A stretch of DNA of 64,000 nucleotides from Branchiostoma floridae (lineage: Eukaryota > Chordata > Leptocardii > Amphioxiformes > Branchiostomatidae). The notes below the pieces were generated by a model. It made no database searches, had not been told where the DNA came from, and saw nothing but the letters and a program-made list of their open reading frames with translations. The DNA is taken from the NCBI RefSeq assembly GCF_000003815.2, contig NC_049995.1, forward strand, positions 17,184,376-17,248,375, read 5' to 3'. Position 1 is the first letter of the stretch. Each line of letters begins with the position of its first letter. The translations under genes and the position numbers were made by a program. Shown piece after piece: positions 1,501-55,699 of this stretch.

Positions 1501-2047
1501 GAAAGCTGGTGTTTGCCGACGAAGGAAAGAACATTGTCTTGCGAACGCGGAGCATTCTGGTCCAAGATGGCGGCGAACTCCACATCGGAAGTGAGACATG
1601 TCCCTACCTAAGTGACGTCACGATTTCTCTCTACGGCAAGTCCGACGAGGGGGAGAGTCATCCCCTCTTTGGTAAAAAGTTCTTCGGAGTAAACAAAGAT
1701 GGAGTGGTCGAGATACACGGAAAGCCGAAACTGTCATGGACGCAGCTTACCGCTACGGTCATGTCGGAGGGGCTACCAAAAGGAGGGCATCACTCCGGTG
1801 TTGGGCATCGCGGGATTAACCTTAGAGTATTGGACGAGCTGACGGGAGAGGTGGTGGAGAACTCCTGGTACGATACCTACATCAACATGGAGGATAGTAA
1901 GAAGCTGTCCGCGGCCCTCAACGGGGTGGCTGACGGCAAGATCATCATCATGGCGGTCAGAGACGAGGGTTCGAAAAGTTTGGGTACTGCCGCGAAGAAG
2001 GCCATCAGAAGTCTGGGCAGTAAAGAGATAGACAAGTTGTCGTACAG
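1501..2047 (+). CDS. CEMIP: CEMIP-like exon 1 of the window: G8 domain
   Basis: This 547-nt exon encodes most of the G8 domain. It opens GKLVFADEGKNIVLRTR and contains GGELHIGS, VEIHGKPKLSWT and GHRGINLRV, the landmarks of the family. The acceptor is TTCACAG at 1500 and the donor is CAG|GTTGGT after 2047, leaving two bases of an Arg codon that exon 2 completes with G. Reading continues past the donor to a stop at about 2140, but that extension has no family similarity and is intronic. The first residue needs a G from an upstream exon, so the coding sequence begins outside the window. Confidence 0.93.
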
Positions 2048-5000
2048 GTTGGTATCTCTTCATGTCGGTCAATGGACCGATCCCAAAACCACGCCCCCTT
2101 TTCGATCTTGGTTCTATTTCGAACACCTTCGTCAAAAATAGCAATTTCTGTCCCACGGGGCAGTTTTTGACGGACGTGTTCGAAATAGAATAGGGGGTTC
2201 TGTTTGTTCGATATGGCGTTCGACAGGATCCGTCCATTGCAACAGTTACTACTTTATTTTCTGAAACATATGAAGTATAGTATTTCTGCTCTATTCATCC
2301 ACATAGAGCTCAGATCTGCCAAAGACATTGACAAATTGCAGCTACCTCATTTTATAAAAACATTCTGCTATATTCATTAGCGATGCGAATACCAACTAAA
2401 CAGCTCACAGCTCAGCCAAAGTTTCACCAGAATTGGGAGGCGTAGACTTAACTGTTCCATCTGATCCAAAACGTCTCCAGATTAGGGCAATAAGTTCAAG
2501 TTTAAAGTTATCAAGGAATGAACTTTGCCCCTTTTTTACTTCTCAATGTCCGAACTGTGACTTCTGCCTTTCACGCAATGGATCAAAATGCACTTATTAT
2601 CTCCCTAATGTTAACGATAGACATTCATTTTGCAAAAGTAATAACTTCAAAGTAATAACTTCAAAGTAATAACTTCAAAGTAAGAACTTCAAAGCATGAA
2701 CTTTCCTCGGACATGGTCGGTCGACGTGCTTTACACACGACATGGTTATACCGCTCCTTACGGGGGGGGGGGGGGGAATACCCTTTCGAATAGCTGAATA
2801 CAAGACGGGGATGCGCCAGGTCTCCCGTCCCGGTGAATGATGTTAATCACTGTATATGGCTGATACGAGACAGAGGTTCGTCAAGCCTTCATCCTGGTTA
2901 TTTGTAGTGAATCACGAACTCCCGACAGAAGGATTTGCACCAACGCACACCGCACCATCGCACGCGTGGCGGGTTCTTTAACGTGCCTGGGGCATGGCTC
3001 TCCCCAGACACGGGACCTCCACCGTCCTATCCGAGGGACGGTTCTAGCCAAAGCTGGGTAAAGTGAGGAAAGCGGTGTAAAGTTTCACCTGAGTAAAGTG
3101 AGGAAAGACGTTTGAAGTGGCTTTCCCAAGCGCACAAGATCGGTGGCACGGCAGCCGGATTCGAACCCAAGACCTCTCGGTCACAAGGCAAACACGCTGC
3201 CGCTGCGCTACGCATGTATACGGAAAGGAAACGTCATATTTCACAAACGTGTCCCAGCTTGCAAACTCGTGGAAATTTCTCTTTTGATTCAGCGCATCCA
3301 TTGGTACGACCGCCAGTAAAGACAGATGAACAAAGTCAAGAAAATCTAACTTGGGGACAGATAGCATGATAGTAAAAGGGATATTAATACTCTAGCTTTT
3401 GATCAGGAAGAATTTGTCAGCTTTACTAGCATTCATTTGCCATATGATTTCACTGGCCGACAACGCTCTGGCGTTGGCGTTGATTGTAGTTGTCTGTCGC
3501 TTGATGTAAATCAGGAATTTTCACAAGAGGAATTTTCTTTCAAAACGCTTTGCTGAGTCTGTGAAAAAAATAAGCTATCTTTCTCGGACACGCAACCCAA
3601 GGAAACGTCATATATACGGCAAGAAGTCGTCAGGCCGTTCCAACCTTAAAAAATCGTGGAAATACTGTAAATACAGAAATGTTCGCGGTGGATTTATGTT
3701 CGCGGTTTTCGCGTCTGCCATTTCACCGCGAATTTAAAAGCACCGCGAACATTATTTCCAGGGCATTAAGATACTACAGTGAATGGTGCTACCGCGAAAT
3801 TAAATCTCCGCGAACTTAAATGCATTTACAGTATGCCTTTTGATTCAGTGCTTTGGCAGTAATGACAGATGGGCGAAGTCAAGAAAATCTTTGTTTTGAA
3901 GACTGATAGCATCGTATTATTAGGAAGAATTTGGAATTTCGGCAGAATTTGTCAGCCTTGCTTTCATGTCACCAAGCGTGTTCACTGACAGAGCGAGTTT
4001 TGGCGTTGACTGGAGTTGTCTGTCACTTAAGATAAATCCGCGTTATCACCCAGGGCAAATGAGGAATTTTCTTTCAAAACAATTTGCTGAGTATGTGACA
4101 AATAAGCTACTTAATATCAGACGTGCTTAGTTGACATACGTGTCTTGTCATAACTAACCCCCTTTCGGTGACAGATGTTGTCTAAACGTTTGTTTAATAG
4201 TAAAAACATGTCGATCGTGTTACTTACTGTAGGGACTTGGTTTGTCAGCTGGTTCCTGGTCGTCAGGGGATTAAATAGTCACTGGAAACATCTTACATAG
4301 ACACAAACTGTGACTGTTATTTCACACATCGGTAGATAGATTTTTACTGTACAAATATACAGGTGACAAATTTATATGATATCCAATCCACGTTTGGCGT
4401 TGACTTTTTGAAATTGACCTTTAAAAATCTGTTTCGATGAATTTGGTGAATCATCTTCGAAACTCTTGCCCTGTCTATAACTTACGAAGTTCGCTCCGTT
4501 ATTTAGCGAGAAGTTATATCGTTAGCTATTGTATTTTGTATTGAAACTTTCTGATATGACTAACTAGCCTGCTATCCATCTGTATAATAGCTCCCGAGGC
4601 TCTTCTGTCCTCTCTGGAGAAGAGACTCGGGAGCTATAATCCTATAAAACGCATTTGGGGAGAACAGAAGAGACTCGTATGTCTGATTTTCAGTTCATTC
4701 CATGTTTGCTTTCTATTAGATCAAAGTTATAATTTGTTGTATATGTCACAGTAGAGATCGCGATCTAGTAGAATCGTTGATTCTCCTAGGAGAGATCACG
4801 ATCGGAGTTTCTCCTAGGAGAGATCACGATCGCAATCTGTACTAGTACAAACGACGATANNNNNNNNNNNNNNNNNNNNNNNNNNNNNNNNNNNNNNNNN
4901 NNNNNNNNNNNNNNNNNNNNNNNNNNNNNNNNNNNNNNNNNNNNNNNNNNNNNNNNNNNATTTGTTTTATATGGACTCCAGGAAGACTAGTGATCCATCA

Positions 5001-8000
5001 CCGGAGATCTCAATATACCAGACCAAACCAAACTCGGAAGCTATAACACGGCTGGATACCAGCCTAATGACTAACAGGTGTCACCAAAAACACATGTCAC
5101 TGGAAACATCTAACATAAACAGAAACTGTGACTGTTATTTTACACATCGTAGATAGATTTTTACTAATACAAATATTCAGGTGACAAGTTTCTATGATAT
5201 ACCCTCCACATTTTTGGGATGACTTTGTGAAAATGATTGTCTCTTTTAAACTGTTTTGATAATTGGTGTGAATCATCTTCATCTTCCTGTCTATACCTTA
5301 CGACTTTCGCTTAATTTTATTGCGAGAGGTTAAGAGGTTAGCTTTGCATTTTCTGATATAAAGAAAAGAGACCCGGGACCTATCATACGTATTTGCAGAG
5401 AGGACAGAAGAGACTTGGGAGCCATAACACGGCTGGATACCAGCCTAATGGCTAATAGGTAACACCAAAAACACATGTACAGACACATGTAAGCCTTCAG
5501 AGGTTCTCTGCTATCCATGTTATGAAGTCAAACCAGGACAAGCCAAACACACGTGACTTCTCACAACATGTCATCCGTCCAATGTCAACACCCAACCACT
5601 TATCTACTTGACCTTTTGACCTTGACCCTGTTTCGCAGGGAACCATGGGTATTCCTGGGTGTCAAGGGCAACACGAGTGCTGCTATGGAGAAAAGACTGT
5701 CTTACAAAGGTAATACGGACACTTTCTTTGTTATTTTAGAGTATTTTGAGCTGCACATTTTTGTAAGTACATTCTGATTTTCTTTTCCACACAAAAAAAA
5801 TAAAATTCGATTTTTCTTCCCAGACGCACACCGTACGGGAACTGCAGGAGTATCCCGGATGTTCACCACGCCCTTTGGAGCATCTTTCAAGATAGAAGCA
5901 ACAAGTTCCTGGTCAAAAGGTCTGGTTGCATTTCATAGGTTAACGCACTAAGATAAAGGCTGTTACATGTAAAGAAGCTCATGAATGCATTGTTAGCCAT
6001 CATCAACTTTGTGATCCTTTATTTAACGTATTGTACATCATCCTCGAAACCAGACCATAATGGCATGGCTGGCGTTGCCGTTTCATAAGCCATTCCTTCC
6101 CTTCAACCTTCCCTCCTTTCCTTTCTTTTCCTCCATAATTCCTTCTTTCATTCCTTCCTTCTCTCCCTTCTTCCTTCCTTTCTTGCTTCTAACCCTTCCT
6201 TCCTTCGTCCTCCCACCATTGGTTCCTTTCGTCCTCCTAACCTTGGTTTTGTTCCTCCCTTCCACCCTTCCTTGCTTTCTTCCTTCTTTCATTCCATCCT
6301 TCCTTCCTTCCTCGACCTTCCATCCTACCTTCCCTCATACGTACATTCATGGAATATTCTATCTGTCTACAACAATACATTTTGATAACTCTTCTCTAAA
6401 ACTTCCAGGAAAGTCAGACTTCCACATCTCGGTCACCGGAAAGGTAGCCGACTACGTCATCAACCTGAACGATGACGTCACTTCCTGGCAGCCCGGGGAT
6501 CGGATCGTACTGGCCAGTACAGATTACTCCATGGAGCAGGCGGAGGAGTTTGAGTTGCTTCCGTGTCCGGAGTGCTCCAAATACCAGGTCAAGATCAACG
6601 GTAAGCACTATGGCTGACTTGGGAGGTTAAGATAAGTTACTTCTGGTAACATGAGTGCAGTACCACATTGTCCACGTCTGTCCCACAGTAAATTTTTAAA
6701 GAATCTGTGATCCTACTACGTAGAGATCCAGATTCGGGTTTCTATGGACAGAAAATCTGATCTGTCTCGCTACTGGTAAAATTGTCATTTTGCCGGATCC
6801 CAATCTCTACCCCAATTTTTTAGCTCCTTGCTCTACCCTAACATTTATACAACAATACCCCACAATAGACAAGTCAGGTTTGATTAAAAAAAAGCACTTT
6901 TATCCTGTACTAGGGAAGCAGACTGAGACTATGGTCTCGCTCTCTTTGAGTAGAATCGCCGATTTTGCCAGATGTAAATCTCATCTCCAACATGTATAGT
7001 TACTCTAGAATAGTCCGGTCTGTTTAATGCACTTCTATCCCGCGCTAGGAAAGCCGAAGTACATGCACTTCGGTGAGATCTCAGACGGAGTGGACCTGAG
7101 GGGTGAGGTCGGACTGCTGTCCAGAAACATCAAGATCCAGGGCGAGGTCGAGAGTCGTTGCTATGGAGACAACTTCTGCCAGTTCTTCGATTACGACACC
7201 TTTGGTGGCCATTTCAAGGTGGGTGAACTCTGACTTCGAAGGAGTCATTTTCGTAACTGCCAATACCTTTTTCAAACATGAAATCGGAGATCAGCTACCT
7301 CCGTGATAAAGAGTGTCTGTAAATCTCTTCAATACCAAATCTTAAACAAATCCCTCGTAAGGATCATGACTTATATAGGTGTAAACCCTCTAACACAACC
7401 CAAAATAGTAACCCCCCCCCCCCTCTCAGTTGACCCTCGTCCCCGAGGTAATAACAGTATAACATTTCTAGGATAACAATATTCCTTGTTAGTAATCAGG
7501 ATCTATATAAAGACAACAGTCCACGTTTTCTTGACCGCCGGTCCCTTTCCTCAGGACAATACTGACTGGGTCTGGTTGGTACTGCAGCCAAGTGTAGCCT
7601 CTTAAAAATAGACCACAAACATAAAGTATTGTCATCTTTGCAGTCCCAAGCGTGAAGTATTGTCACCTTTCTTGCAGGTACTCGGAGGTTTTGACTTGAT
7701 GTCACTAAATACCCTGCTATTGGATACAGTGGATAAAGGTTACCCCAAGGATAAAGGTTGTCATCTGACGTTAACATTCCTTGCAGGTGCTGGGAGGTTT
7801 TAAGAGCGTGCACCTGTCGGGGGTAGAGTTCAACCACATGGGTCAGCAGATCCTGGGCAGCTATCCGGTACACTTCCACCTAGGGGTGACCTATATCCGG
7901 TACACTTCCACCGTGGGGTAACCTATATCCGTTACCATCTCTTGCAGGTGCTGGGAGGGTTTAAGAGTGTGCACCTGTCCGGAGCAGAGTTCACACACAT

Positions 8001-11000
8001 GGGTCAACTTCCACCGCGGGGTAACCTATATCCGGCACACTTCCACCGTGGGGTGACCTATATCCGGTACACTTCCACCGTGGGGTAACCTATATCCGTT
8101 ACCATCTCTTACAGGTGCTGGGAGGGTTTAAGAGTGTGCACCTGTCCGGGGCAGAGTTCGCCCACATGGGTCAGCAGATACTGAACCGTTATCCGGTACA
8201 CTTCCACCGCAGGGTAACCTATATCCGGTACACTTCCACCGTGGGGTAACCTATATCCGTTGCCATTTCTTGCAGGTGCTCGGAGGGTTTAAGAGCGTAC
8301 ACCTGTCGGGAGCAGAGTTCACACACATGGGTCAGCAGATAATGGGCAGGTATCCGGTACACTTCCACCGCGGGGTAACCTATATCCGCTACACTTCCAC
8401 CGTGGGGTGACCTATATCCGGTACACTTCCTCCGCGGGTTAACCTATATCCGGTACACTTCCACCGTCGGGTGACCTATATCCGGTACACTTCCACCGCG
8501 GGTTAACCTATATCCGGTACACTTCCACCGTGGGGTGACCTATATCCGTTACCATCTCTTACAGGTGCTGGGAGGGTTTAAGAGCGTGCACCTGTCCGGA
8601 GCAGAGTTCGCCCACATGGGTCAGCAGATACTGAACCGTTATCCGGTACACTTCCACCGCAGGGTAACCTATATCCGGTACACTTCCACCGTGGGGTAAC
8701 ATATATCCGTTACCATCTCTTACAGGTGCTCGGAGGGTTTAAGAGCGTGCACCTGTCGGGAGCAGAGTTCTTACGCATGGGTCAGCAGATAATGGGTCGG
8801 TATCCCGTACACTTCCACCTGGCTGGTGACGTAGACGAGAGAGGCGGTTACGTCACACCGACCTACGTCAGAGACCTGTCCATCCACCATTGCTTCTCTC
8901 GATGCGTCACGATTCACGCGACCAATGGGCTGCTGGTAAGGTGTCATGTCAGATGACAGCAAAAGTCAGCTTACTAAATGAATATAAAGAGTGAAAGATG
9001 TCACTCAAAACTTCCGGAAATAATCCCCGTACCATCCATTAAGACCTAAAGTCGGATTTGTTTTTAGATATTGTTTACCTCGTTGTCTTAACTTTATAAA
9101 ATTGTCAGCAATAAACATTTGCAAAAATGATGATAAATCTACTACAAATTCGCGCCCGAAGACAAATTCGACATACCACGAACCAATGTCAATGTGGTTT
9201 GTTTAGCTAATTTTTTACAGGCTAAACAGAAGCCTCAGTTTTTCTACAATAAAGTGTTTATAGAGTTTTTCGTTTATATGGGAGTAATAAGAAGTTGTTC
9301 CAACACAGCTGTTAATATGAATAAATTAAGGTTCAAACAAACAAAATATTTTCCTCCAAGGTACAAGACACCGTAGGCTACGACACCTTAGGTCACTGCT
9401 TCTATCTCGAGGACGGCATCGAAGAGCGGAATCGGCTGGTGCACAATCTGGGGCTAGTTACCCGACCCGGCACCCTTCTGCCTACGGACCGGGATGGCGT
9501 CATGTGCAGGGACATCAGGACTGGGGTGTTCGGGGACTACATACCGCTGGGGAGCGACTGCAAGTAAGGCCCAGTTTACACTTGTCATTTTAACTGTAGT
9601 ACGACACAGCGTAGTCTACCACTGTAGTAGCCTACGGACCGGGATGGCGTCATGTGCCGGGACATCAGGACTGGGGTGTTCGGGGACTACATACCGCTGG
9701 GCAGCGACTGCAAGTAAGGACAAGATTTGTAGATACACGTTATGTGGTGTTACTGTAGGGTAAAACCCAGAGGTCCTGCGCACGGACCGGGATGGCATCA
9801 TGTGCCGGGACATCAGGACTGGGGTGTTCGGGGACTACATACCGCTGGGGAGCGACTGCAAGTAAGGCCCAGTTTACACTTTTTATTTCAACTGCATACG
9901 TAGTACTGCACAGCGTAGTCTACCCCTGTAGTAGCCTACGGACCGGGACCCCGTCATGTGTCCGAACATCAGGACTGGGGTCTTCGGGGACTACATACCG
10001 CTGGGCAGCGATTGCAAGTAAGGACAAGATTTGTAGATACACGTTATGTGATGTTACTGTAGGGTAAAACCCAGAGGTCCTGCGGACGGACCGGGATCCC
10101 GTCATTTGTCATAGCGACTGCAAGTAAGGACAAGATCTGTAGTTACTAGGGCTGGGTATCGGTACAGCGTACCGGTACAAAACCGGTTTTTCTTATTGGA
10201 CCGGTCCAGAAAAACCGGACCTGAAAAAATTAGGTGGACCTGATGTTGGACCGATTAGAAAATTAACATATTATTTGATCAGGCATTCACACGTTTTGGC
10301 GCTTGCAGTTGGAAGAAAATGACAAGAGTGAAGTAGAGTAGAGTTTATAGTAATTTCTACCAAGTTTGACAGTCAATCGTACAGGTGCAGTTAGCGTTGT
10401 AGGATTTTAAAACGCCAGTGTAAGTCTAATACTCCACCAAACAGATTTATTTGTGGTGAAATGGACCATTGATATGAGTCAAAATGAATCAGGTCCAGGT
10501 TCGGACCTGGACCTGATCCTCTGGACCTGAACCGGACCTGGACCTGAATTTTCTGTACCGGTACCCAGCCCTAGTAGTTACTGTAGTAGTTTTAGTAATG
10601 GATACCTGGCATTGGTTGGGAAGGTAAAAGGAAGCTGAAGGAATAACAACCTTCTGTCCTACTTCCTCAAAAGGCTGTGAAGCTATCTTAACCTTTTACC
10701 TTAAGTTAATAAAATCATCCTGGTCTATACCAGATTCCATAGGCTATTCGTGGCTTCCTTCCTATAGTTCGTGAAACGTTCACAGTCTAACTGATTCCGT
10801 GCTTACTCCACAGCGCCGTGTCGACATTCTGGATCTCCCACCCCAACAACGACCTCGTCAACAATTCCGCGGCAGGGTCAATGGTAAGGTATTATCATAA
10901 AGATTATAACTGCCAGTAATAAAACTTTCTTTTTGCGACATGACACGTTTTTTTAAAGTTCGTGATCATCTTGTTATTGACGTTCTAAAGATTTCATACG

Positions 11001-14000
11001 ATATTAACGTAAACAGGGTAAAGCGCTTACCAACAAGCTTTCGGTCAGTCCTCCTCATGTTGAAATGACCATAGGCTTAAGTCATGTGACCTGAACGAAG
11101 GCATGGCGTCAGCAATGGGGCGTGACATTTTCCATGTACAATGTGTCAACAAAACTTTTTTTTATGATGGACAAAAGTGTAAATTTTATAAGCGTTTCAG
11201 ATTATAGTTGTCCTATATCTTACGGTATTTTATTTCTTCTTCAGGACACGGGTATCTGGTACATCTTCCACGAGGTTCCCACGGGTTTGTCTGAAGGTCT
11301 TCACCTGGACCCCAGCACCATCTACACACCGCTGGGCAGGTTCTATAACAACAGGGTTCACTCCAACGACAGGGTAAGTCACTACACATCATCTACACGC
11401 CTCTGGGTAGGTTCTATAACAGCAGGGTGCACTCCAACGACAGGGTAAGTCACTAGACACCATCTACACACCACTAGGCAGGTTCTATAACAACAGGGTC
11501 CACTCTAACGACAGGGTAAGTCACTAGACACCATCTACACACCACTAGGCAGGTTCTATAACAACAGGGTTCACTCCAACGACAGGGTAAGTCACTAGAC
11601 ACCATCTACACACCACTAGGCAGGTTCTATAACAAAAGGGTCCACTCCAACGACAGGGTAAGTCACTAGACACCATCTACACACCGCTGGGCAGGTTCTA
11701 CAACAACAGGGTTCACTCTAACGACAGGGTAAGTCACTAGACACCATCTACACACCACTAGGCAGGTTCTATAACAAAAGGGTCCACTCTAACGATAGGG
11801 TAAGTCACTACACACCATCTACACACCGCTGGGCAGGTTCTACAACAACAGGGTTCACTCCAACGACAGGGTAAGTCACTAGACACCATCTACACACCGC
11901 TGGGCAGGTTCTACAACAACAGGGTTCACTCCAACGACAGGGTAAGTCACTAGACACCATCTACACACCGCTGGACAGGTTCTACAACAACAGGGTTCAC
12001 TCCAACGACAGGGTAAGTCACTAGAGACCATCTACACGCCTCTGGGCAGGTTCTATAACAACAGGGTCCACTCTGACGACATGCTAAGTCACTAGACACC
12101 ATCTACACACCGCTGGGCAGGTTCTACAACAACAGGGTTCACTCCAACGACAAGGTAAGTCACTAGACACCATCTACACACCGCTGGGCAGGTTCTATTA
12201 CAACAGGGTGCACTCTAACGACAGGGTCAGTCACTAGACACAGGCACCATCTACACGCCTCTGGGCAGGTTCTATAACAACAGGGTTCACTCCAACGACA
12301 GGGTAAGTCACTAGACACCATCTACACACCGCTGGGCAGGTTCTATAACAACAGGGTCCACTCCAACGACAAGGTCAGTCACTAGACACCATCTACACAC
12401 CACTGGGCAGGTTCTATAACAACAGGGTCCACTCCAACGACAGGGTAAGTCACTAGACACCATCTACACANNNNNNNNNNNNNNNNNNNNNNNNNNNNNN
12501 NNNNNNNNNNNNNNNNNNNNNNNNNNNNNNNNNNNNNNNNNNNNNNNNNNNNNNNNNNNNNNNNNNNNNNACAACCCGGCCGAGCTAAATTCTTGATTTG
12601 CAAAACCGGCTTTAGGACAGTGCGTTTTGCCGTGGTCCCACTGTTCATTGTGCTTGTCGAAAACAGCTAGGGGGATTTCCCCGTACAATGAATCTGTAAA
12701 TGGAAGACATGGCGTCCCTTTCTTTGTCATGACCAGTGGTATATATGAGCTCATCTGTGGTCAGTTTATTTGAGCTACGCTGGTTCGAGATCACTTTTAA
12801 CACGAAGTATGAATAACAATTTAATGAGCATCTTTTTTTTTGTCCCTCAGGCAGGCTTGATGCTGGATTGCGGTGTAAAAACTACGCACCCAAACTCACA
12901 GGACCCGCGGGAGTACCTGGCCATGGATAAGGGCAGGTGGGCAGTACTGTCCTTATATTCAAATCACAAATTGCATAAAAAAGCGAGGCCTCTCGTCTTC
13001 CCCTGCGTCTCAAAAGAAGTCAAACCCACTCTGTCTAGATAAAGCCAACACTAGTCAAGTAATCTCTTTTTACAAAAACTTGCAAGTAACCCATTGGTTG
13101 TGTCAAAGAATTTCTCCCTTATCCTATATTCTACCAACCTGATGAAACTATTTTCGGTTGCAAGTAACCTCCGGGCACGAACTTGCAAATAAATTTCGAT
13201 ATTCTGTTCTTCATATTACTTCAAGAACAGAAATTGTTTGATTTTTCTGCCAATTTTCAGTCCGTGGGTCCTTCGTTGTTTTTCTCAAGTTATTTTTCAT
13301 CAAACCAGTTCTTGACGGTGCGTCAGTGTTTTTGTTTTCAACTTTCAGGTACGCCCCCCACGAAGACGGAGACGTGTCCAAAGCCAGAGTGCCGGCCCTG
13401 ATAGAGGGGCTCATCGCCTACAAGAACCACAATGACGGGGCCTGGGTTCGGGGCGGCGAACTGAGGCTGGATAAATGCGCGTAAGCAAATACATAAATAA
13501 CCTTTATTCTAACTGGATAGCCCTGTCGGCCCCAGTCGCTCTTCCCAGAGGTCCAATGGATGGAGAACATAAATAAATCAATACCAAAATATCGTACGTA
13601 TACTTGTAATTGATCCAATGACCGAGTGGGTAGAGTGTTCGCCCTGCAATCGTTTGGTACATGGTAGTGAGCCATGCCAAACACTTTATACTTCATTCCA
13701 CTTTCTCTGTTTACCACTCAGCGTTTGGGTAAGGAGTATGAAAGTTGAACACACACCACTACCAGTGGACTAGCCCCATGCTGCAGTGATTGCATAAAGT
13801 CGTGTGACCCAAGGACAATAGAAATGGAGATGGGCGCCGCCAGATATATTTAAAGAATACTTTCATTTTTCTTTCTGTTGTTTTCTACTGGATTATATTG
13901 TACTAAAAACTGACCGGAATTTTACATGTTGCAGATTCGTGGACAACGGAAAGGGCCTGACGCTGGCAAAGTATGTATCTAGTCTGTTGTGTCTTCTGAA

Positions 14001-17000
14001 CTTTAACATGGCGCCTCTGACTAACGAAGGTTGTTTGGAAATAAAGCAGAGGCTGTCCTAATTTGCCGTTTGTGTATGAGATAATAATAGGCAGTCAAAG
14101 AAGACGAATTGGCACTCATTGCCTCGTGTTTTGTCTGAATTGTAGACCAACTGTTCCAAGCATGATAAAAAATCTAAACATAATGAGCCATCAATCGCTC
14201 TACCCGCCAACATCACATGCCTTTGTAGGGATCGTTCATGAGTGGATCAAATCTAGGGTTACGAAGTGTTTTATGTACTTTATGTAAGATTGGTAAGGCC
14301 ACAGCAAGTACATCTTATGGATGACATCCACGCGCTCATTAATTTTCGCCTGATTTGAGAAAGAAAAAAAAAACAAGATTTTTTTTCTTCGTCAGGGATG
14401 GTCAGATAGACCAAAATGGGTAAAGGGGTTGTGTTGTAACCAAATAATAGAATATAGAATTGACACTAGATGGGTAGCATTGACTGTAGTTGCAGAAGTG
14501 AAACTTGCTGGATAGTTGTAAGAGTGACACCAATATGGAAGTCATGAGTGTAGTTGCCAACATGGTTAGTGATACCATTCTACCACACTGGTGTCACTTT
14601 TACTACACTGGTGCATTTCTTAAATACAGGAATGAATGCCTTGTTGGTTGTGATGCCATATTTTGTCACTTCAATTCTTGTTATAACGTTTATGGTGTCT
14701 ATTTTGAAAATTTACCATCTTGTTTTTTTTTTACCCGTCTTGTTTTTTTTCTCGCCCTACCTCATTATTTTTGCAGTTTTCAGAGGATGTCATCCATAAA
14801 ATTTACTTGCTGTGGCCTAATGTTTACTCATGTTAGGCTAAGGTCACATTTCCAAACTTAGACCCGGCCGACCCACCGCCGGTTTGGAAATGCTACGTTG
14901 ACCTTAAAACAAACAAACGCCAAAAATTGAAGTGAAGATTAAACAAATAATAGTACGCTTTAAGTGCTTTTGAACAATAAATCGTTTACCCGTGATCTTT
15001 TATCCCCAGTGACGGAACCTTCCCCAGCGATGACGGCTCCACGCAGCAGGTGTGGAACAGCGTGTTTATCGGGGAGAGCGCGAACGTGGGAACCGACGCC
15101 GGCGGTAACAAGTTCTACGGCACGGGAGGAGTGGGCAAAAGCTGGCGGACGTTACCACGAGGCAGGTTAGGTCAATAACTTCGAGTGTTTCAAATTCAGG
15201 GCTTTCGCCTATCGGTACCAAACACACTTATGGAAAAGAATAGGGATACTCGGACGTCGGTTATAAACTGTGACCTAAATTGCCGGAATATCATGCCAAT
15301 GGAACTAAAAAGACAACAAAATACACAAATCGTTAAAAAAATTTAAGATAATTAAATTATTCGCTTTTAGCCCTGATGTTTGTTGCGCGCTCTGTCAAAT
15401 CTTATGTCGCATTCAGGTCGTCGCCCCAGTTGAAATAGCGTGGATTGGATTCAGTTTAAAGTATGCGCTTGCGTGAGAATATCATACTTTGTCTTGCGAG
15501 AACTTCCTATGTAAGAAGACGAGATCTTGTTAAACTAGCCCTAGCGTAGTGAAGTCGCATTGCACTACGTCCAGACGAAAAAGCACAATATATTAATATG
15601 CTTGGCCGGCTTTTGTTACTTTCTTATACCAGGTACATCAGCATTGAGATTAACAATGTTTTACCTCAGTTAATGATGACTTTATATTTTCCCTTAATGC
15701 ATAGCGACTTCCCGATGCGAGGCCTACAGATATACGACGGCCCGACCCGGGTACTGAACTGTACCTTTAAGAAGTACGCTCGTACCGAGGACCGGCTGTC
15801 CAGCGCTATCGGGTTCCGACTGGACAACACCTGGCAGGGATCACCCAAGAACAACCTCACCAGGGTCAAGTTCGAGCATGTGGGTACGCTACGTCATCGT
15901 GTAGGTAGATGAAAGGAAGGGAAGGGAAGGGAAGGGAAGGGAAGGGAAGGGAAGGGAAGGGAAGGGAAGGGAAGGGAAGGGAAGGGAAGGGAAGGGAAGG
16001 GAAGGGAAGGGAAGGGAAGGGAAGGGAAGGGAAGGGAAGGGAAGGGAAGGGAAGGGAAGGGAAGGGAAGGGAAGGGAAGGGAAGGGAAGGGAAGGGAAGG
16101 GAAGGGAAGGGAAGGGAAGAGGGTAGCTTGATGTTTGAACTAACCCATTTTCCATTTGAATGAACTTGAACTTGATTAAGCCGAGACAGGTAAGTTCACA
16201 GTGCTTGTGCCTACTTGTTACCAACAGTTTTGTTTGTATTTTTTTTTGTACTGCGAAAGTCCATTTTTTTACATTTGATTCCTTTTTCTCCATCAGTATG
16301 AACATTTTGTTCCGTAGCTCAAAGAAATGACCCTCAAAGAATGCCTTCTCCATTGAGTTTAAGGAAAAAAAAAAACTTAACCATCCTCAACTCATAAGAT
16401 AGCTCACTCGCATGTCAGCAATTTTTCATTGCAGCAACACACCTGCATGATAACAAAATGACCGTAGTTAGCATCTAACCATTACCTTACTCCATGCTAA
16501 TTTTTAGACCGTCTCCAGAGTGTATTACGGGCACCCCGGCCCCTGGTTCGGTTCGAACGAGAAAGATGGCGACAAGACGTCGATGTTCCATGACCTTGAC
16601 GGGACGGTCACGGGGTACCGTGATGTTTACGTCACCAGGATCGATAACTGGATCGCAAGGAATCCTGGGTGCGTGGAAAAGCCGGACTGGAAGGGAGTCA
16701 TCTGTAGCGGGAAATACGCACAGGTAGAATCAAAGTTTTATGGGTGCAACGTAAAACGTTTACCGACAAATCTTTTGGTCACCCCTCGTTGAGATAACTG
16801 GAAGTGTATGTCACATGACCTGAACGAAAGTGTGACGTCAGCAACGGGTTAAAGGTGTCCGTTAGTCGGTATCGGCCCCCGCCTCAGTTGAGGGATGGCC
16901 ACGTGACAAAGGTATCGGGCCATGACAGTAAAAAATGTCAATTAATCAATCAGCAGTAATCGGATAATCTGCGGTTTAAATTGCAAATAGACAATTGATG

Positions 17001-20000
17001 TTTTTTTTCGTTTTGTAAAATTGCTATAACAGATTGAATTAGATGCTCAAATACGCAGTTGGTTTACACTTTACATTGTTCATCAAATTATTATCTTAAA
17101 TGACAGATTTGTACCAAATTTAGATCCACGCAACAAAAGAGGTATACATAAAACTAACTATAACTTCCAGTTTTTCAGTACCTGTTTTATCTATCATTTA
17201 TTACAGTTGTACGTCCAGGCCCGAAACCCCCACACCAACACCATGTGGGTTCGGAGGGACGAGTACCCTGACCACCCCCTCAAGCTGCACGGTGCACTCG
17301 TCGACGCGCACTACCAACAGTACCAGCCCGTAGTCATGCTGGAGAAGGGCTATACCATTCACTGGGACGGGATGGCGCCGGCTGAGATCACCATTCACCC
17401 CATCAACTTCGACAGGTTGGGAACATTTTAAAATCAATCAATCGTATCTGTAACAAAGGGGAACATGGACCCATCTGAATGTTTTTACTTCCCTTGAATC
17501 CAGTCCTTGTAAAGATTTGTCAAAACCATCCAACAACAGAGAAGGGGGATCCATAGATTTTCTGCAACTTATGACCCACTGCTCACAGAGTCACGTGTTC
17601 TATCTGCATTACGTAACGTCTCGGAAGCGGCGAATTACTCATTCATTGGTAAAGACTGGAGTTGATCATCCGAAGTTTTTTGTATGTTCGATCGGCAATA
17701 GCAGATTCTTAAAAAAACTTATCGTAACATTTTCACCCACTGTAGAGACGACTTTGTCCGGTTGGGCTGTGCTATCCCCGCGTACCCAGTTTCAGATCAT
17801 CTGATTCAGAACAACTTATCATAATTTATCATATGATTCATTCATAACAACTTATCATAACATTTCTATCCACCACAGAGACGACTTTGTCCGGCTGGGC
17901 CTGTGCTACCCCCCGCGTACCCAGTTCCAGATTATCTACCAGCTGTGGCAGAGGAGCCCGAAGAAGTTCTACGGAGACGAGGAGGTTTACCCGGCCTTCT
18001 CTGTGGACGACATTGAGAACAGCGTCGGCAACTCCTACTTCTTCGACGAAAGTACAGGGTAAGTAATCGTTCACGATCTGACTGGTAATACTTCCCATTG
18101 CAGCTAGGCGTCGCTGCTGCGTTACAAATACTGTTCTAAACGTAAAGTCGGCTCATGTATAAACGTGCCAGCCTCTTACCATTCCTTGTTAAATATTTCG
18201 TTTGCATCAAATTTTCACAATAACTATACCTACTGTCGCCTGTTTCATGATCAATGCTGATGACCAAACACTTCAGAACACAAAAACAATTTACTAACAC
18301 GTGATCTTGCGGATATGTGACGTCAGGAATTGGTCAAAAGTGCTAGGAAGTTTAGGATTGCACGTTTTCCAGCCTCCTGTTTCTGAAAGTGAGCGCCCGG
18401 TACCATAGAGATGGGGACAGCTACTGTTCGCCACATACACTCGCGAAAGTTACACACGATGTTATTAACACGTGTTACGTGACGTCGGCAATTGATCAAA
18501 AGTTTGTTTATGCTTTTTTCCCAGCCTCTTGTTCCTGAAGGTGAGTGCCCGGTACCATAGAGATGGTGACAGCTACTGCTCCAGTATGGGTTGTGAGAGA
18601 ATCATCATCCACGCCTTCGTCATGAGCGACGAGGTGGCGAACTGCACCATAGAGGCCTACCCCAAATATTACACCCCGCCTACGGAAACGGTCCCCATGG
18701 CAATCCACGTGGCTGAGCAAGAGTCATGTTCTAATTGTGGATCCCAGGTTAGTAATTAAAGATTCTAGTACTGAAGAAGATACATCTCTCATTAATTTGC
18801 ATTAATATTTTCATAAAGACAAATATTTTCATTAAATAGTTTATTACCATAATCTCTTTCAGCATCTAGAAAATGTCCAAAATCACACATTTATCAAAAT
18901 GGAAAGAAAAGCATTTATCATAGAAATGTGGGACTATTTATTAGTCTAAAGCAGACTTCTAACACGTGTACCCACCCTCCCTTAGTTATGCAGGTAGAAA
19001 CATTGGACAGAACTATAGAAGAAGAAGAACTTTATAGACGAGATTTGTTCCTTCGGAAATAGCCTTTGGGCATGAGTTTACAAAGATTATCATTATTATC
19101 ATCATTTATCTTTTAAGCCATCGTTACTACTTTGCTAATGTGCACCTTGTACATCTGTTATTCTAAGCATGCACTTTATTCTCCAGATCCCGATAGTATT
19201 TGATGATCGGCAACAGTATGCCAACATAACTATAGTATCCAGCGGATTCTTCGAGGTGAAAAATGGACTACAGACATATGTAGAGGTGAGCCACATGATA
19301 TTTTCTCCTTTCTTGTGTCTTAGACATGCTATGGTCATGGTTTTTGAGAGCTAAATAGCTTTTGTGGGAGTTACTATTGCTTCCCTGTGCTATTCCGTTT
19401 GGGGTATTTCTTCACATAACTATCAACTCGGTCATAATGTTTGCTAGTGGCATTCAATGGCAGAGTGGGCAGGCTATCAAACGTCATCAGATTGAGAGTT
19501 TATGGCCTCTATTCCTGGCGTTCATGGCTAAACGTTGTACCCTTGGGAAAGACCCCTTTCAGAACTTTCCCCAGGTGGGAATATGGATATCTGACTAAGA
19601 TTGGGGAGTTTAAAGGCAATATAAGTAGATGGGCTCAACCTGCCAATACCGTGCCCTAAGATACAGTGTAAAACAACTCACTGCCCCTACGGCCTTTAAA
19701 AAACTATGAAACTACCTTTACTCTTCTGTTTGTTTTCCAGGTGAACGGTGTAAAGGTCATAGGTCGCAGGGGTTACCTGGTGGTGGCGGTGGACGTGACG
19801 TCAGGTAACGTCACCCATCAGCGCAGCTTTGACACGTTTGCGCAAGCGCGGAAGGACGAAGCGATGGCCAGATTTATACGGAAGGAAGTCCCCTTAGAGT
19901 AAGTCAACATCTTCGTTTTCTGTGTTTTCTTAAACAGAAATTAGCTTCCCCCTCAGTTCGTCCATATTCCAATCCAGCCTTTGAAGAATGATCGTTCTAA

Positions 20001-20699
20001 GCTGCATGGAGTAATCATTTATACATCCTCTCCATCCTTACGTCAGGCAGTTTGATACAGTTTACAATTTGCCATCAAGTTTATACGTGTTATATGTTGC
20101 TTTTGTATTGCAGATCTATTATATTAGTGTCCGTAAAGGATGAATCCAGCAGGCGAGCCAACCATTGTCTACAGGCACTCAGGGAGATAGGAGCAAAAGA
20201 ACCGGTCAAAACGGGATTTAGAGGTGACTTTTTTGTTTTCCGCGTATGTAGTCAGTCTAAGAAGACTAGGACCTATACTGCAGATATACAAACAGATTTC
20301 TACGTAAGTAATCTTGTTTTTTATATAAATATGGCTGCCTTGGTATCGTCTGGAAAGAAGCTACATCAAAACAGTTGTCATAATCAAATATGGTGGTTTT
20401 GAATAACTAGGAAAGCCATCAAACCATTAAAGTACCTGCCATAACCAACAATGGTATTTTGTATCGTCCTGGGTAACTAAAAACACTGGTCATGACAAAA
20501 TATGGTGACTTTGTATCTTCCAGGAAAACAGCATGAAAACACTTGTCATAACCAAATATGGTATTCTTTTCATTTTCCAGGAAGCTTTGCCATGATTGGC
20601 TACAAAGGCCTGACCCAGCCGTCATGGATCCAACAGATCAACCTCCCACCGAAGAAGGGACCAGCCGAGATCCGGACCCTCATCCCCCTCCTCAAGTAG
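1501..20699 (+). CDS. CEMIP: CEMIP/TMEM2-family hyaluronan-binding protein, 22 exons, 5' end missing
   Basis: The family comprises secreted (CEMIP) and type II membrane (TMEM2/CEMIP2) proteins that bind hyaluronan and promote its breakdown. Exons, all GT-AG and phase-consistent: 1501-2047, 5639-5709, 5824-5919, 6409-6600, 7049-7218, 8726-8935, 9361-9563, 10814-10883, 11245-11373, 12851-12936, 13349-13480, 13935-13970, 15010-15165, 15705-15879, 16508-16723, 17207-17415, 17879-18058, 18525-18747, 19187-19285, 19741-19898, 20114-20223, 20581-20699. They total 3587 nt, or about 1,194 residues to a TAG stop. Domain order is G8, central beta-helix region, then a C-terminal ILEI/PANDER-like (GG) domain. 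The first exon opens inside a codon, so the start and any signal peptide or membrane anchor lie upstream. Secreted versus membrane-bound therefore cannot be decided. Similarity to human CEMIP was judged from memory and is strong along the whole length, except for a stretch missing between exons 3 and 4. Confidence 0.93.
2940..3225 (-). mobile_element. tRNA-derived SINE
   Basis: Read on the minus strand, the head resembles a tRNA, with a box-A-like AGCGCAGCGGCAGCG and the B box GGGTTCGAATCC (about 3155-3168). It is followed by the family hallmark GATCTTGTGC, CTTGGGAAAG, then a TTTCCTCAC stretch. The body continues to the CCGTCCTAT/GAGGGACGG segment near 3030. The same order recurs at 51045-51340 and 53740-54060. 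Confidence 0.82.
3663..3834. mobile_element. Palindromic MITE with ACTGTAAAT(G/A)CA ends
   Basis: 172 bp. The left end reads TACTGTAAATACAGAAATG, then TTCGCGGTGG. The right end is its imperfect reverse complement (CCGCGAACTTAAATGC, then ATTTACAGTA). Internal GCGGT/ACCGC blocks are also paired. A second copy sits at 24825-24981, and decayed relatives start near 44787 and 49692. It has no coding capacity. Confidence 0.83.
4860..4959. other. Assembly gap (100 N)
   Basis: One hundred Ns inside the first intron of the CEMIP-like gene. It directly follows short tandem palindromic units (CTCCTAGGAGAGATCACGATC repeated around 4785-4835), which probably stopped the assembly. Confidence 0.98.
5639..7218 (+). 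CDS. CEMIP: CEMIP-like exons 2-5: link from G8 into the beta-helix region
   Basis: Four exons. Exon 2 (5639-5709) encodes EPWVFLGVKGNTSAAMEKR. Exon 3 (5824-5919) ends in ATSSWSK. Exon 4 (6409-6600) carries DVTSWQPGDRIVLASTDYS and ends LLPCPECSKYQVKING. Exon 5 (7049-7218) contains ISDGVDLRGEVGLLSRNIK and ends DYDTFGGHFK. Phases agree across every junction (2/1, 1/2, 1/2, 1/2). Compared with my memory of human CEMIP, roughly 80 residues are absent between exons 3 and 4, although the phase is preserved. The intron between them (5920-6408) holds only a TTCC-rich tract. A weak echo of the exon 5 acceptor lies near 6890-6935. Confidence 0.9.
6084..6335. repeat. TTCC-rich compound microsatellite
   Basis: A degenerate (TTCC)n/(CCTT)n tract directly upstream of the exon 4 acceptor. 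It creates an apparent leader of Phe/Leu/Pro/Ser in the same frame as exon 4. That leader is not part of the protein. Confidence 0.9.
7678..8725 (+). repeat. Truncated tandem copies of exon 6 with acceptor sites
   Basis: At least six partial copies of the 5' part of exon 6 precede the complete exon. They begin at about 7678 (short, decayed), 7786, 7948, 8115, 8276 and 8565, each after a CTTGCAG- or CTTACAG-type acceptor. Most copies read VLGGFKSVHLSG and run as far as the codons for PVHFH, then break off. There they pass into a roughly 32-bp minisatellite built from TATCCGGTACACTTCCACC, followed by a GTGGGGTAACC-like filler. Every copy stops exactly where the real exon continues into LAGDVDERGG. 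Spliced into the message they would shift or end the reading frame, so they are most likely non-coding. Confidence 0.9.
8726..8935 (+). CDS. CEMIP: CEMIP-like exon 6 (complete copy) with HFHLAGD motif
   Basis: This is the only full-length copy in the local array: 210 nt, phase 0 at both ends, 70 codons. It encodes VLGGFKSVHLSGAEF, then PVHFHLAGDVDERGG, and ends in HATNGLL before the donor GTAAGG. The PVHFHLAGD segment is one of the most conserved stretches of CEMIP/TMEM2. The preceding partial copies lack everything after HFH, so this copy must be the functional exon. Its acceptor, TCTCTTACAG, is nearly identical to the acceptors of the pseudo-copies, so splice-site competition is possible. 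Confidence 0.93.
9361..9563 (+). CDS. CEMIP: CEMIP-like exon 7
   Basis: 203 nt encoding VQDTVGYDTLGHCFYLEDG, then a stretch with RPGTLLPTDRDGVMC, ending GDYIPLGSDC plus two bases (AA) of an Asn codon that exon 8 completes with C. The donor is GCAA|GTAAGG. The acceptor AAG at 9360 has only a weak pyrimidine tract. The start was placed by phase continuity with exon 6 and by family similarity (VGYxxLGHCF). Copies of its 3' end, donor included, follow downstream. Confidence 0.88.
9620..10132 (+). repeat. Tandem copies of the 3' end of exon 7 with donor sites
   Basis: Three further near-complete copies of the last ~85 bases of exon 7 lie at about 9632-9719, 9783-9869 and 9935-10021, and a shortened one at 10085-10130. 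The period is about 150 bp. Each runs from CCTACGGACCGGGAT or a variant through GGGGACTACATACCGCTGGG to GACTGCAAGTAAGG, so each carries a usable 5' splice site. Spacers alternate between two types (CCCAGTTTACACTT and ACAAGATTTGTAGATACACG), suggesting a two-unit higher-order repeat. None has an acceptor of its own, so they probably act only as decoy donors, if at all. Confidence 0.9.
10147..10573. mobile_element. hAT-type non-autonomous element (copy 1)
   Basis: A 427-bp element with terminal inverted repeats beginning TAGGGCTGGGTATCGGTAC and ending in the imperfect complement GTACCGGTACCCAGCCCTA. It is flanked by a perfect 8-bp direct repeat GTAGTTAC (10139-10146 and 10574-10581). The 8-bp duplication and TAGGG terminus fit the hAT superfamily. 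The inside is rich in GGACCTG/CCGGTC short palindromes and has no coding capacity. It lies in intron 7 of the CEMIP-like gene. Related copies lie at 31872-32292, 38355-38776 and about 54152-54617. Confidence 0.88.
10814..13970 (+). CDS. CEMIP: CEMIP-like exons 8-12, including a 36-nt microexon
   Basis: Exon 8 (10814-10883) encodes AVSTFWISHPNNDLVNN. Exon 9 (11245-11373) encodes DTGIWYIFHEVPTG through RFYNNRVHSNDR. Exon 10 (12851-12936) encodes AGLMLDCGVKTTHPNS. Exon 11 (13349-13480) has YAPHEDGD and LIAYKNHNDGAWVRGGELRL. Exon 12 (13935-13970) is only 36 nt and encodes FVDNGKGLTLA. All junction phases close. These segments belong to the central beta-helix region. Exon 9 is followed by a large array of its own 3' end, and the second assembly gap lies between exons 9 and 10. 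No coding sequence appears lost there, because similarity resumes directly at AG(L/M). Confidence 0.9.
11374..12470 (+). repeat. About fifteen 71-bp tandem copies of the exon 9-donor junction
   Basis: The unit is about 71 bp. It consists of the last ~58 bases of exon 9 (CACCATCTACACACCGCTGG through CCAACGACAGG) plus the donor and 13 intron bases GTAAGTCACTAGA. About fifteen head-to-tail copies follow the true exon 9 and run into the assembly gap. Copies differ by scattered substitutions (ACCGCTGGGC / ACCACTAGGC / GCCTCTGGGC; TTCACTCC / TCCACTCT), and one long-range duplication of variants is visible. Almost every copy keeps a strong GGGTAAGT donor. Because 71 is not a multiple of three, use of a downstream donor would break the frame. 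Confidence 0.94.
12471..12570. other. Assembly gap (100 N) at the end of the exon 9 array
   Basis: One hundred Ns, the usual placeholder for a gap of unknown length. The left edge is inside a 71-bp repeat unit. The right edge (ACAACCCGGCCGAGC) is unrelated to the repeat. The true number of copies is therefore unknown. Confidence 0.98.
15010..18058 (+). CDS. CEMIP: CEMIP-like exons 13-17
   Basis: Exon 13 (15010-15165) encodes DGTFPSDDGST, FIGESANVGT and WRTLPRG. Exon 14 (15705-15879) encodes DFPMRGLQIYDGPTRVLNC and FRLDNTWQGSPKNNLT. Exon 15 (16508-16723) encodes VYYGHPGPWFGSNEKDGDKT and ends KGVICSGKYAQ. Exon 16 (17207-17415) has HYQQYQPVVMLEKGYTIHWD and APAEITIHPINF. Exon 17 (17879-18058) has DDFVRLGLCYPPRTQFQI. 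For exon 14, phase chooses the GTGGGT donor at 15880 rather than GTACGC four bases later. Each block matches human CEMIP in order as I remember it. Confidence 0.92.
15913..16120. repeat. (GGGAA)n pentanucleotide microsatellite
   Basis: About 41 perfect or near-perfect copies of GGGAA start only some 30 bases after the exon 14 donor. The apparent open frames on both strands here (Gly-Arg-Glu-Gly-Lys repeats one way, Pro-Phe-Pro-Ser-Leu the other) are artefacts of the repeat. Confidence 0.97.
17744..17804 (+). repeat. Decayed duplicate of the 5' end of exon 17
   Basis: The run from AGAGACGACTTTGTCCGG through CGTACCCAGTTTCAGATCAT repeats the first ~55 bases of exon 17 (17879 onward) about 135 bp upstream. 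It carries one deletion, several substitutions and a stop. It is preceded by CCACTGTAG, a serviceable acceptor. It is a pseudo-exon, not coding. Confidence 0.85.
18367..18440 (+). repeat. Decayed duplicate of the 5' end of exon 18
   Basis: CCAGCCTCCTGTTTCTGAAA through GGGGACAGCTACTGTTCG repeats the acceptor and first ~65 bases of the real exon 18 (18525 onward). Its upstream flank (CACGTG, then TGACGTCA-like sequence and ATTGGTCAAAAG) also repeats the flank of the real exon. The duplicated unit is about 160 bp and includes intron plus acceptor plus exon start. Confidence 0.87.
18525..20699 (+). CDS. CEMIP: CEMIP-like exons 18-22: C-terminal ILEI/PANDER-like (GG) domain and stop
   Basis: Exon 18 (18525-18747) begins GLLFLKVSARYHRDGD and has SSMGCERIIIHAF. 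Exon 19 (19187-19285) encodes SSGFFEVKNGLQTYVE. Exon 20 (19741-19898) encodes VNGVKVIGRRGYLVVAVDV. Exon 21 (20114-20223) encodes SIILVSVKDESSRRANHCL and LREIGAKEP. Exon 22 (20581-20699) encodes SFAMIGYKG and ends PLLK with TAG at 20697-20699. Exons 19-22 have the layout of the FAM3/ILEI-type GG domain found at the C-terminus of CEMIP: a leading beta segment with VNG, a conserved VV(A/I)VD strand, then ILV and a final (V/I)GxKG. All junction phases close. Confidence 0.92.
20340..20580 (+). repeat. Imperfect ~60-bp tandem repeats before the last CEMIP-like exon
   Basis: About four diverged copies of a unit reading CTGGAAAGAAGCTACATCAA, then TTGTCATAACCAAATATGGT. The last one merges into the real acceptor TTTTCCAG at 20580. 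One earlier copy ends CTTCCAGGAAAACA, resembling the true CATTTTCCAGGAAGC junction. This is the weakest member of the exon-edge repeat series in this gene. Confidence 0.65.
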
Positions 20700-22848: not shown

Positions 22849-23587
22849 GTTCTTTGTTGTTTTACAGTTCTTAAACTTATAAATCTATTGCACCATCCAG
22901 CAAAGTACAAGTTAGCAAAGACATATTAGGTAATGTTTAAAACATACACATGTCGGTGTATAGTCCAGAATATAGCTATAGATTCTTCTTCTTCTTGCTT
23001 TTTAGTATCGGTGCAAATGTGGGATTAGCTACACTCAGCTGTTTATCAAAATGCACGAAAAATATATAAATTTCTCGTGTACCTTAAGTAAGGGAATCTA
23101 TAATGCTGACCCTTTCTTCAGAATTCCTCATTTCAAGTACAATTCAACGATTCTGTTTCCTGCTAGGACGACTTCATCCTTGCGCACTACGTCGCCCGGT
23201 CTCACCTTTTCCATGTAATCTTTCACCGCCTTTTCCTCGAGTTCAAGCTCGAGGGCTTTTACAGCGTCATAGATGTGCTTCTGCCAGTTTAGACTTTCGG
23301 CAACGTCACGGTCAAAGTGGCGTCGTTTATGCACAGGTTTGACTTTGATGAGTTTTGTCAACCCATCAGCGCTGCTTCCATACATGTCTTGGCACCAGGA
23401 GACGACGTCTGATGAGGTGATGGTAGATTTTGCTGGAGTGTGCTGCACGCAGGGTGTACCCTTCCTATAAAACATGACAAAGAATATTTAGACCGTATAG
23501 AGCCAGCAGACGTGTAAAATTCTTTGCACAGTGCAACGCCAATCATTACGATCTCTTTTAGGACGCTCACTGTAGCAGCAACCGAAG

Positions 23588-55032: not shown

Positions 55033-55698
55033 CTACAGTTTCTTCGACATCTTCAAAACGGTGAAGAAAGCTCCGGGGAGAGGTAAAATCCTGTGATGAA
55101 TTCTTTCACTGATGACGTAGCCGCATTTTCGATACAGGTGCACGCCGTACCCAAAATATGTGATGAGAAAAACCTCCCTTATACCCACAGATCTGCAGTA
55201 TTCTTCCAAGTGGTTCACCATGATCGTCCCAACTCCCTGCCGCCGATACGCGGCATGGACGCTCATCCGTTTGAGTTCAGCCAGTGTGTCGGATATCCTA
55301 TACAGGGCAACGGAACTGATGAAGTTTTGTCCGTACATAGCTACCCAGATTTTGCTTCCAGGTTGAGTAGAGTACCATGTGTATAGATCTTGGAGCTCTT
55401 CCTTGTTTCTTGAGACGTCTTGCTGGTAGTCCATCCATAAGTACCAGATAGATGACAAGAAGGTGACTAGGAAAGGAACCAAGGTTGAAACAGACACTGA
55501 GTTTGTCAGTCTGTATAACGCAGTGAAGAGGACGACCATCCACACCAGTGTCTCAAAGTTTCTCATCAGTACAAAAGCGTTGCGGAGAACCAAGTTCCAT
55601 CGGAGGCGCTTTTCCACAAGTCCAGAAAGAACCATGGCGCAAACCGCCTGGGATTGTTCCTGACGAAGTTCTCTTATGACTATGTCTCTCTTTTCCAT
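55033..55698 (-). CDS. NAT8/camello-type N-acetyltransferase, single exon, 221 aa
   Basis: A GNAT-fold acetyltransferase. NAT8 relatives sit in the ER membrane and acetylate cysteine conjugates or protein lysines. The frame is uninterrupted from ATG at 55698 to TAA at 55033. A hydrophobic double segment lies at about residues 49-89 (ETLVWMVVLFTALYRLT and LVPFLVTFLSSIWYLW), the usual NAT8 membrane anchor. The acetyl-CoA loop RRQGVG is at 152-157, preceded by the strand ELKRMSV (141-147), with the C-terminal GNAT strand LYRKCGYV. Length matches the family (about 220-230). It has no intron while its neighbours have many, so either the family's usual compact form or retroposition explains it. Substrate unknown. 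Confidence 0.9.
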   Translation of the reverse strand: MEKRDIVIRELRQEQSQAVCAMVLSGLVEKRLRWNLVLRNAFVLMRNFETLVWMVVLFTALYRLTNSVSVSTLVPFLVTFLSSIWYLWMDYQQDVSRNKEELQDLYTWYSTQPGSKIWVAMYGQNFISSVALYRISDTLAELKRMSVHAAYRRQGVGTIMVNHLEEYCRSVGIREVFLITYFGYGVHLYRKCGYVISERIHHRILPLPGAFFTVLKMSKKL

Positions 55699-55699
55699 G

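Follow-up and report, generated by a model that had tools for sequence, protein, structure and literature searches.

How a gene might keep its message intact while its own splice junctions multiply is the question raised by a stretch of the Branchiostoma floridae genome (assembly GCF_000003815.2, contig NC_049995.1, positions 17,184,376 to 17,248,375 of the forward strand), the whole 64 kb of which is here called the window. Within a predicted CEMIP/TMEM2-like hyaluronidase gene, tandem partial copies that span a splice junction accompany exons 6, 7, 9, 17 and 18. We interpret these arrays, with a probability of about 0.6, as mirage minisatellites that are silent in splicing and whose exonic parts exchange sequence with the working exon. 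Their assignment to the published mirage class is firm, and the exchange between array and live exon stands at about even odds. The arrays themselves are a known phenomenon; what is new is the mainly synonymous nature of the differences found in the spare pieces of exon.

The 22-exon model of the host gene, on the plus strand, encodes a single uninterrupted frame of 1194 codons, and the 5' end of the gene lies further upstream of the modelled start at 1501. The model protein matches PDB 8c6i, a cell surface hyaluronidase that we take to be TMEM2, over residues 6-1192, and the Pfam families G8, ILEI and CEMIP beta-helix all match within its first 757 residues. This presence of all three in one protein is what identifies the predicted hyaluronidase as CEMIP/TMEM2-type. 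At least 14 more CEMIP-like loci occur in the genome, several of them on contig C5. In these loci the match to exon 6 starts at query positions 351-358, close to residue 359, where exon 6 of the present gene opens, which suggests that the intron position ahead of exon 6 may be shared.

Arrays were located by Tandem Repeats Finder, self-BLAST and position-by-position comparison, and the methods agree. Self-BLAST recovers all five and Tandem Repeats Finder those at exons 6, 7 and 9, confirming what the initial annotation had read from the letters alone. Its division by junction type also holds, with acceptor and exon start duplicated at exons 6, 17 and 18 and exon end and donor at exons 7 and 9, as does its statement that unit lengths differ between junctions (Table 1). 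At exon 6 the spare acceptors and exon starts lie at 7787, 7948, 8115, 8276 and 8565, all ahead of the working exon; the copy at 7948 departs from the exon sequence after about 60 nt, and 7678, where the annotation had placed the start of its feature, is one additional, diverged acceptor copy. The working donor of exon 7 follows position 9563 and the spare donors follow 9713, 9861, 10017 and 10123. Between 9564 and 10146 two poorly alignable intronic tails alternate behind near-identical exonic parts. The exon 9 unit is made up of 58 exonic and 13 intronic bases, and its copy number is a lower bound because the assembly gap cuts the array off. A further example ahead of exon 22 had been described as weak, and it is: the BLAST match has about 71% identity (expect value 5e-5) and stops 15 bases short of the exon.

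Codon by codon, the spare pieces carry a pattern that would be expected of coding sequence. The working exon 18 and its single spare differ by six synonymous and no non-synonymous substitutions in 54 nt, and exon 17 and its single spare by four and none in 57 nt, in addition to two 1-base deletions. Pooled, 10 of 10 substitutions are synonymous; with the working copy allowed synonymous changes of its own, four mutation models give P 5e-5 to 4e-4. When spares are compared with each other, the ratio of non-synonymous to synonymous differences per site (pN/pS) is 0.109 for exon 9, where the permuted median is 0.63 and 0 of 1000 permutations are as low, and 0.278 for the four spares scored at exon 6 (7 of 1000 as low). 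Exon 7, at 0.302, is not significant alone (84 of 1000); permuted values across these arrays lie at 0.6-0.8. Variants carried by at least two copies comprise 16 synonymous and six non-synonymous changes, with 6.5 synonymous expected (P 8e-6), and changes private to one spare are near neutral at 11 to 13 (8.4 synonymous expected, P 0.15). All codon counts exclude the diverged acceptor at 7678 and, at exon 7, the truncated copy near 10086; the exon 6 copy at 7948 was cut after 60 nt for the count of shared and private variants and omitted from pN/pS.

The gene is also rich in decoy splice sites, as had been proposed. Spare sites number 27 (15 at exon 9, four at exon 7, six at exon 6 including the diverged 7678 copy, and one each at exons 17 and 18), and the donor is exactly GTAAGT in 12 of the 15 exon 9 spares. 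In silico, every one of the 27 leads to a premature stop if taken as the exon edge. Such duplications should endanger splicing, and annotation by homology-based gene finders will run into spurious exon ends there. At exon 6, where the working copy reads FLRMGQQ, the five spares retain an H as in 8c6i (HMGQ); by this comparison they appear to preserve a residue lost from the working exon.

The initial annotation knew of no standard mechanism that targets splice junctions; minisatellites that span exon-intron junctions have been published as 'mirages' in several amphioxus genes, with their origin undescribed. The available excerpts of that literature, to which our statements about it are limited, name Adh3, globin and PGBD5. 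The B. floridae globin mirages BflGb6 and BflGb9 have units of about 150-160 bp, with 6 and 3 units on two haplotypes; the same study cites Adh3 of two amphioxus species and includes reverse transcription polymerase chain reaction (RT-PCR) data that suggest regular splicing. A PGBD5 mirage is reported, and troponin C cited, in PMC3902484. Copy number that varies between haplotypes and somatic instability are further traits of the class; of the CEMIP-like gene a single haplotype was found among the matches listed. In the CEMIP-like gene the unit spans the exon-intron boundary in all five arrays, acceptors and donors are both affected, AG or GT is kept at 26 of the 27 spare sites, and periods run from tens of bases to about 160 bp, all as in the published cases. 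The gene differs in having five arrays, and the synonymous bias measured here is unmentioned in those excerpts of the published accounts. A literature search from which subscription journals were mostly absent brought up no title that deals with constraint on the codons of mirage copies or surveys mirages across a genome.

Two other systems invite comparison. Ordinary minisatellites share the head-to-tail units, higher-order units and copy turnover, whereas here one edge copy is the working exon end, so that the unit is partly coding. Duplicated AG/GT junctions are common to the arrays and to intron gain by proto-splice-site duplication (the Rogers model, as cited in the part available of PMC3087553), in which such duplications have been proposed to give rise to new introns; in the present gene neither a new exon nor a new intron can be seen, and the spares appear unused.

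The arrays are not peculiar to the CEMIP-like gene. A myosin sample of nine loci (58.3 kb, 46 exon hits), found with PF00063 and not chosen for arrays, contains 11 tandem-duplication clusters, seven of which touch an exon edge in four of the nine loci. This rules out the uniqueness that the initial annotation had implied. Loci L034, L035 and L038 have one edge-touching cluster each: exon end and donor are duplicated in L034 and L035, the L035 spare being without GT, and the exon start in L038. The remaining four lie in L041: one repeats an exon start five times, one of these copies being partial; two duplicate exon ends; and the fourth is an acceptor array at the start of the P-loop exon with 22 copies, including the working one, at a 50-bp period. 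With four junction arrays in 3.8 kb (L041:1-3801, G000:C10:21154800-21158600), this myosin gene is at least as striking as the CEMIP-like gene. Recurrence in unrelated genes makes it testable how the splicing machinery selects a single donor where as many as 16 nearly identical ones follow each other.

A targeting of splice junctions, as the initial annotation supposed, is not established by these counts; the excess over chance is moderate and depends on the null. In the CEMIP-like gene, five of six units of 71-162 bp contain a junction under a null that places units singly (P 0.004), or five of eight when two intron-1 duplications are included (P 0.03); when arrays are shuffled as rigid blocks, five of seven touch an edge against a mean of 4.2 (P 0.41). 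Even these P values are optimistic because the gene was picked for its many arrays. In the myosin sample seven clusters were observed against 3.7-3.9 expected under the rigid-block null (P 0.03-0.04) and 1.6-2.3 under the unit null (P 0.0002-0.002), an excess of about two- to four-fold. Hidden Markov model hits undercount exon edges, and the lower unit-null figure is therefore optimistic; the unit null used 60 bp for the P-loop array, whose actual period is 50, making the expectation slightly too high. A cluster in L035 just past an exon hit is intronic and was scored as a miss, and clusters with a 172-bp shift in L035 and L037, which resemble a mobile element, were kept within the 11. We conclude that arrays are moderately in excess at exon edges. 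This is no proof of targeting, and part of the excess may arise because copies beside a conserved exon stay recognisable for longer.

The model that we favour starts from plain duplication, in which a short tandem repeat would come to include an exon edge by chance. Such a duplication would be tolerated since it leaves one edge complete, in the last copy where an acceptor is involved and in the first where a donor is. The duplicated edge would then expand and contract as an ordinary minisatellite, with the working edge still spliced and the remaining copies silent within the intron, in agreement with the published RT-PCR data from other amphioxus genes. In the step to which we give about even odds, unequal exchange or gene conversion would pass sequence between the exonic parts of the units and the working exon, including its alleles. 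Many spares would then be former or borrowed working sequence and therefore differ from the working exon mainly at synonymous sites, and the youngest, private changes would look unselected. Spares that cannot be translated and yet bear a coding signature would, by the same logic, once have been working exons or have exchanged with them. The exon 7 array supports exchange through the exonic part. Four of its unit pairs have unlike intronic tails; two of these, with tails 65% and 77% identical plus gaps, share 97.5% of 80 exonic bases, and for the other two, in which one member is the decayed fourth unit, the figure is 87.5%. In the part of PMC12862219 available, gene conversion at heterozygous B. 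floridae sites is given as orders of magnitude more frequent than mutation, and in that of PMC12500494 most non-crossover tracts are shorter than 200 bp; with units of 70-160 bp, exchange inside the arrays is therefore plausible.

Over both the CEMIP-like gene and the myosin loci the signature is uneven: it is seen in most arrays and is absent in three myosin arrays. L034 shows two synonymous to no non-synonymous changes and the nearest L041 exon-start spare eight to none; the exonic part of L041 array b is identical to the working exon, and array d was outside codon scoring. Several observations weigh against the exchange that we favour. The other three L041 exon-start spares stand at 5 to 3, 5 to 3 and 2.5 to 1.5 synonymous to non-synonymous, L038 looks neutral at 3.5 to 5.5, the P-loop array carries shared non-synonymous variants, and L035 has 0 to 1 in its aligned part, or 1.5 to 3.5 when the alignment is carried further by eye. 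The direct contrast between shared and private variants reaches only P 0.08. Synonymous divergence between spare and working copies is 0.16-0.51, or 4-13 times the species' synonymous diversity of 0.0397 (effective population size about 1.7 million; both from the available part of PMC12862219). This is too deep for exchange with present alleles alone, and recent copying from such alleles as the sole process, which predicts far fewer synonymous changes than are seen, is rejected. This depth might reflect deep, ancient allelic lineages, a population that was once larger, or selection that reaches the spares via conversion.

The neutral-looking arrays L038, L035 and L041 P-loop, together with the near-neutral private changes in the CEMIP-like spares, are what would be expected if spares were dead from birth and simply decayed, their association with exon edges following from tolerance and from longer recognisability beside a conserved exon. 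Tandem duplications are moreover common: a genome sample of eighteen 10-kb stretches at a fixed position on 18 contigs (one all N), with two more just upstream of the window, holds 34 clusters (shift 50-400) in 185 kb, counted irrespective of exons, and the 64-kb window holds 16. As the sole process, neutral decay is nevertheless rejected, since the non-synonymous changes that it predicts are missing in the strongest cases, namely the uniformly synonymous exons 17 and 18 and the low pN/pS of exon 9. Single-spare arrays pooled (exons 17 and 18, L034, L038) give 15.5 to 5.5 at P about 0.001; adding L035 (15.5 to 6.5, or 17 to 9) weakens this to P 0.002 and leaves the odds of exchange unchanged. 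We therefore consider neutral decay an unlikely account of the whole.

Purifying selection on spares that are themselves translated would leave a similar signature, and at exon 6 such use can be envisaged. The five spares examined there, 7678 excluded, are all open, in phase 0 to 0, from their acceptor to a GTAACC or GTGACC donor, as for in-frame cassette exons of 99 or 105 nt, and pN/pS over the four scored is low. Donor consensus has a G at position +5, which these donors are without. The strongest synonymous bias moreover resides in the exon 9 spares, in which no acceptor is visible within the repeated unit and which read into a stop, excluding their translation in place, and in published RT-PCR results other mirages are spliced normally. 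We regard a use of some spares as improbable. Much the same low standing is given to an assembly error that would have strung pieces of two divergent haplotypes together in tandem, the copies being alleles with mainly synonymous differences. The all-synonymous pattern at exons 17 and 18 would be accounted for in this way, an N run terminates the exon 9 array, and the published excerpts describe B. floridae as about 3% heterozygous (PMC12862219) and one mirage as misassembled in the draft genome. Misjoined haplotypes could not readily yield a 71-bp unit present 16 times or a P-loop unit present 22 times, however; every copy is only part of an exon, no N separates the joined pieces, and their synonymous divergence greatly exceeds the average for the species. 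A second locus of the gene at 90% identity or more, for which none was found among the 44 matches listed in the protein search (39 of 308 candidates scored), also counts against an artefact by its absence.

Mirages that exchange often enough with working exons could, as a more tentative and on balance doubtful extension, act as living archives of exon alleles, in which protein-level selection reaches untranslated spares and synonymous, protein-compatible variants can be returned to the gene. Untranslated intronic DNA would in that case evolve like coding DNA, and the arrays make it testable whether selection on an exon reaches silent copies via gene conversion.

Table 1. Coordinates of the gene, its working exons, the junction arrays and neighbouring features in the window.
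Feature	Position	Strand	Details
CEMIP/TMEM2-like hyaluronidase gene (predicted), exons 1-22	1501..20699	+	open frame; PDB 8c6i and Pfam matches
Exon 6, working copy	8726..8935	+	gene model
Exon 7, working copy	9361..9563	+	gene model
Exon 9, working copy	11245..11373	+	gene model
Exon 17, working copy	17879-18058	+	gene model
Exon 18, working copy	18525-18747	+	gene model
Exon 6 acceptor-type array	7769..8833	+	period 161, nested 32-bp repeats; five spare copies
Exon 7 donor-type array	9478..10146	+	period 148/304; four spares, the last of them truncated
Exon 9 donor-type array	11316..12470	+	period 71; 16 copies including the working one (lower bound)
Assembly gap, run of 100 N	12471..12570		directly after exon 9 array
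Exon 17 acceptor-type duplication	17713..17937	+	shift 133; single spare acceptor and exon start at 17746
Exon 18 acceptor-type duplication	18314..18581	+	shift 162; single spare acceptor and exon start at 18373
Degenerate repeat, end of intron 21, ahead of exon 22	20327..20565	+	self-BLAST; weak
Galactose-3-O-sulfotransferase, at least 2 exons	49316-52007	-	Pfam match
GNAT acetyltransferase	55033-55722	-	Pfam match

Elsewhere in the gene, a near-perfect GAAGG array of about 42 copies (15911-16119) begins some 30 bases past the exon 14 donor and touches no exon of the model. The 20 kb immediately upstream of the window (stretches L010 and L009) hold seven tandem-duplication clusters, a density roughly double that in the remaining 18 stretches sampled. 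Within the window, three similar minus-strand open frames at 23128-23487, 27471-27884 and 36256-36606, which have no Pfam match, are apparently copies of one gene end.

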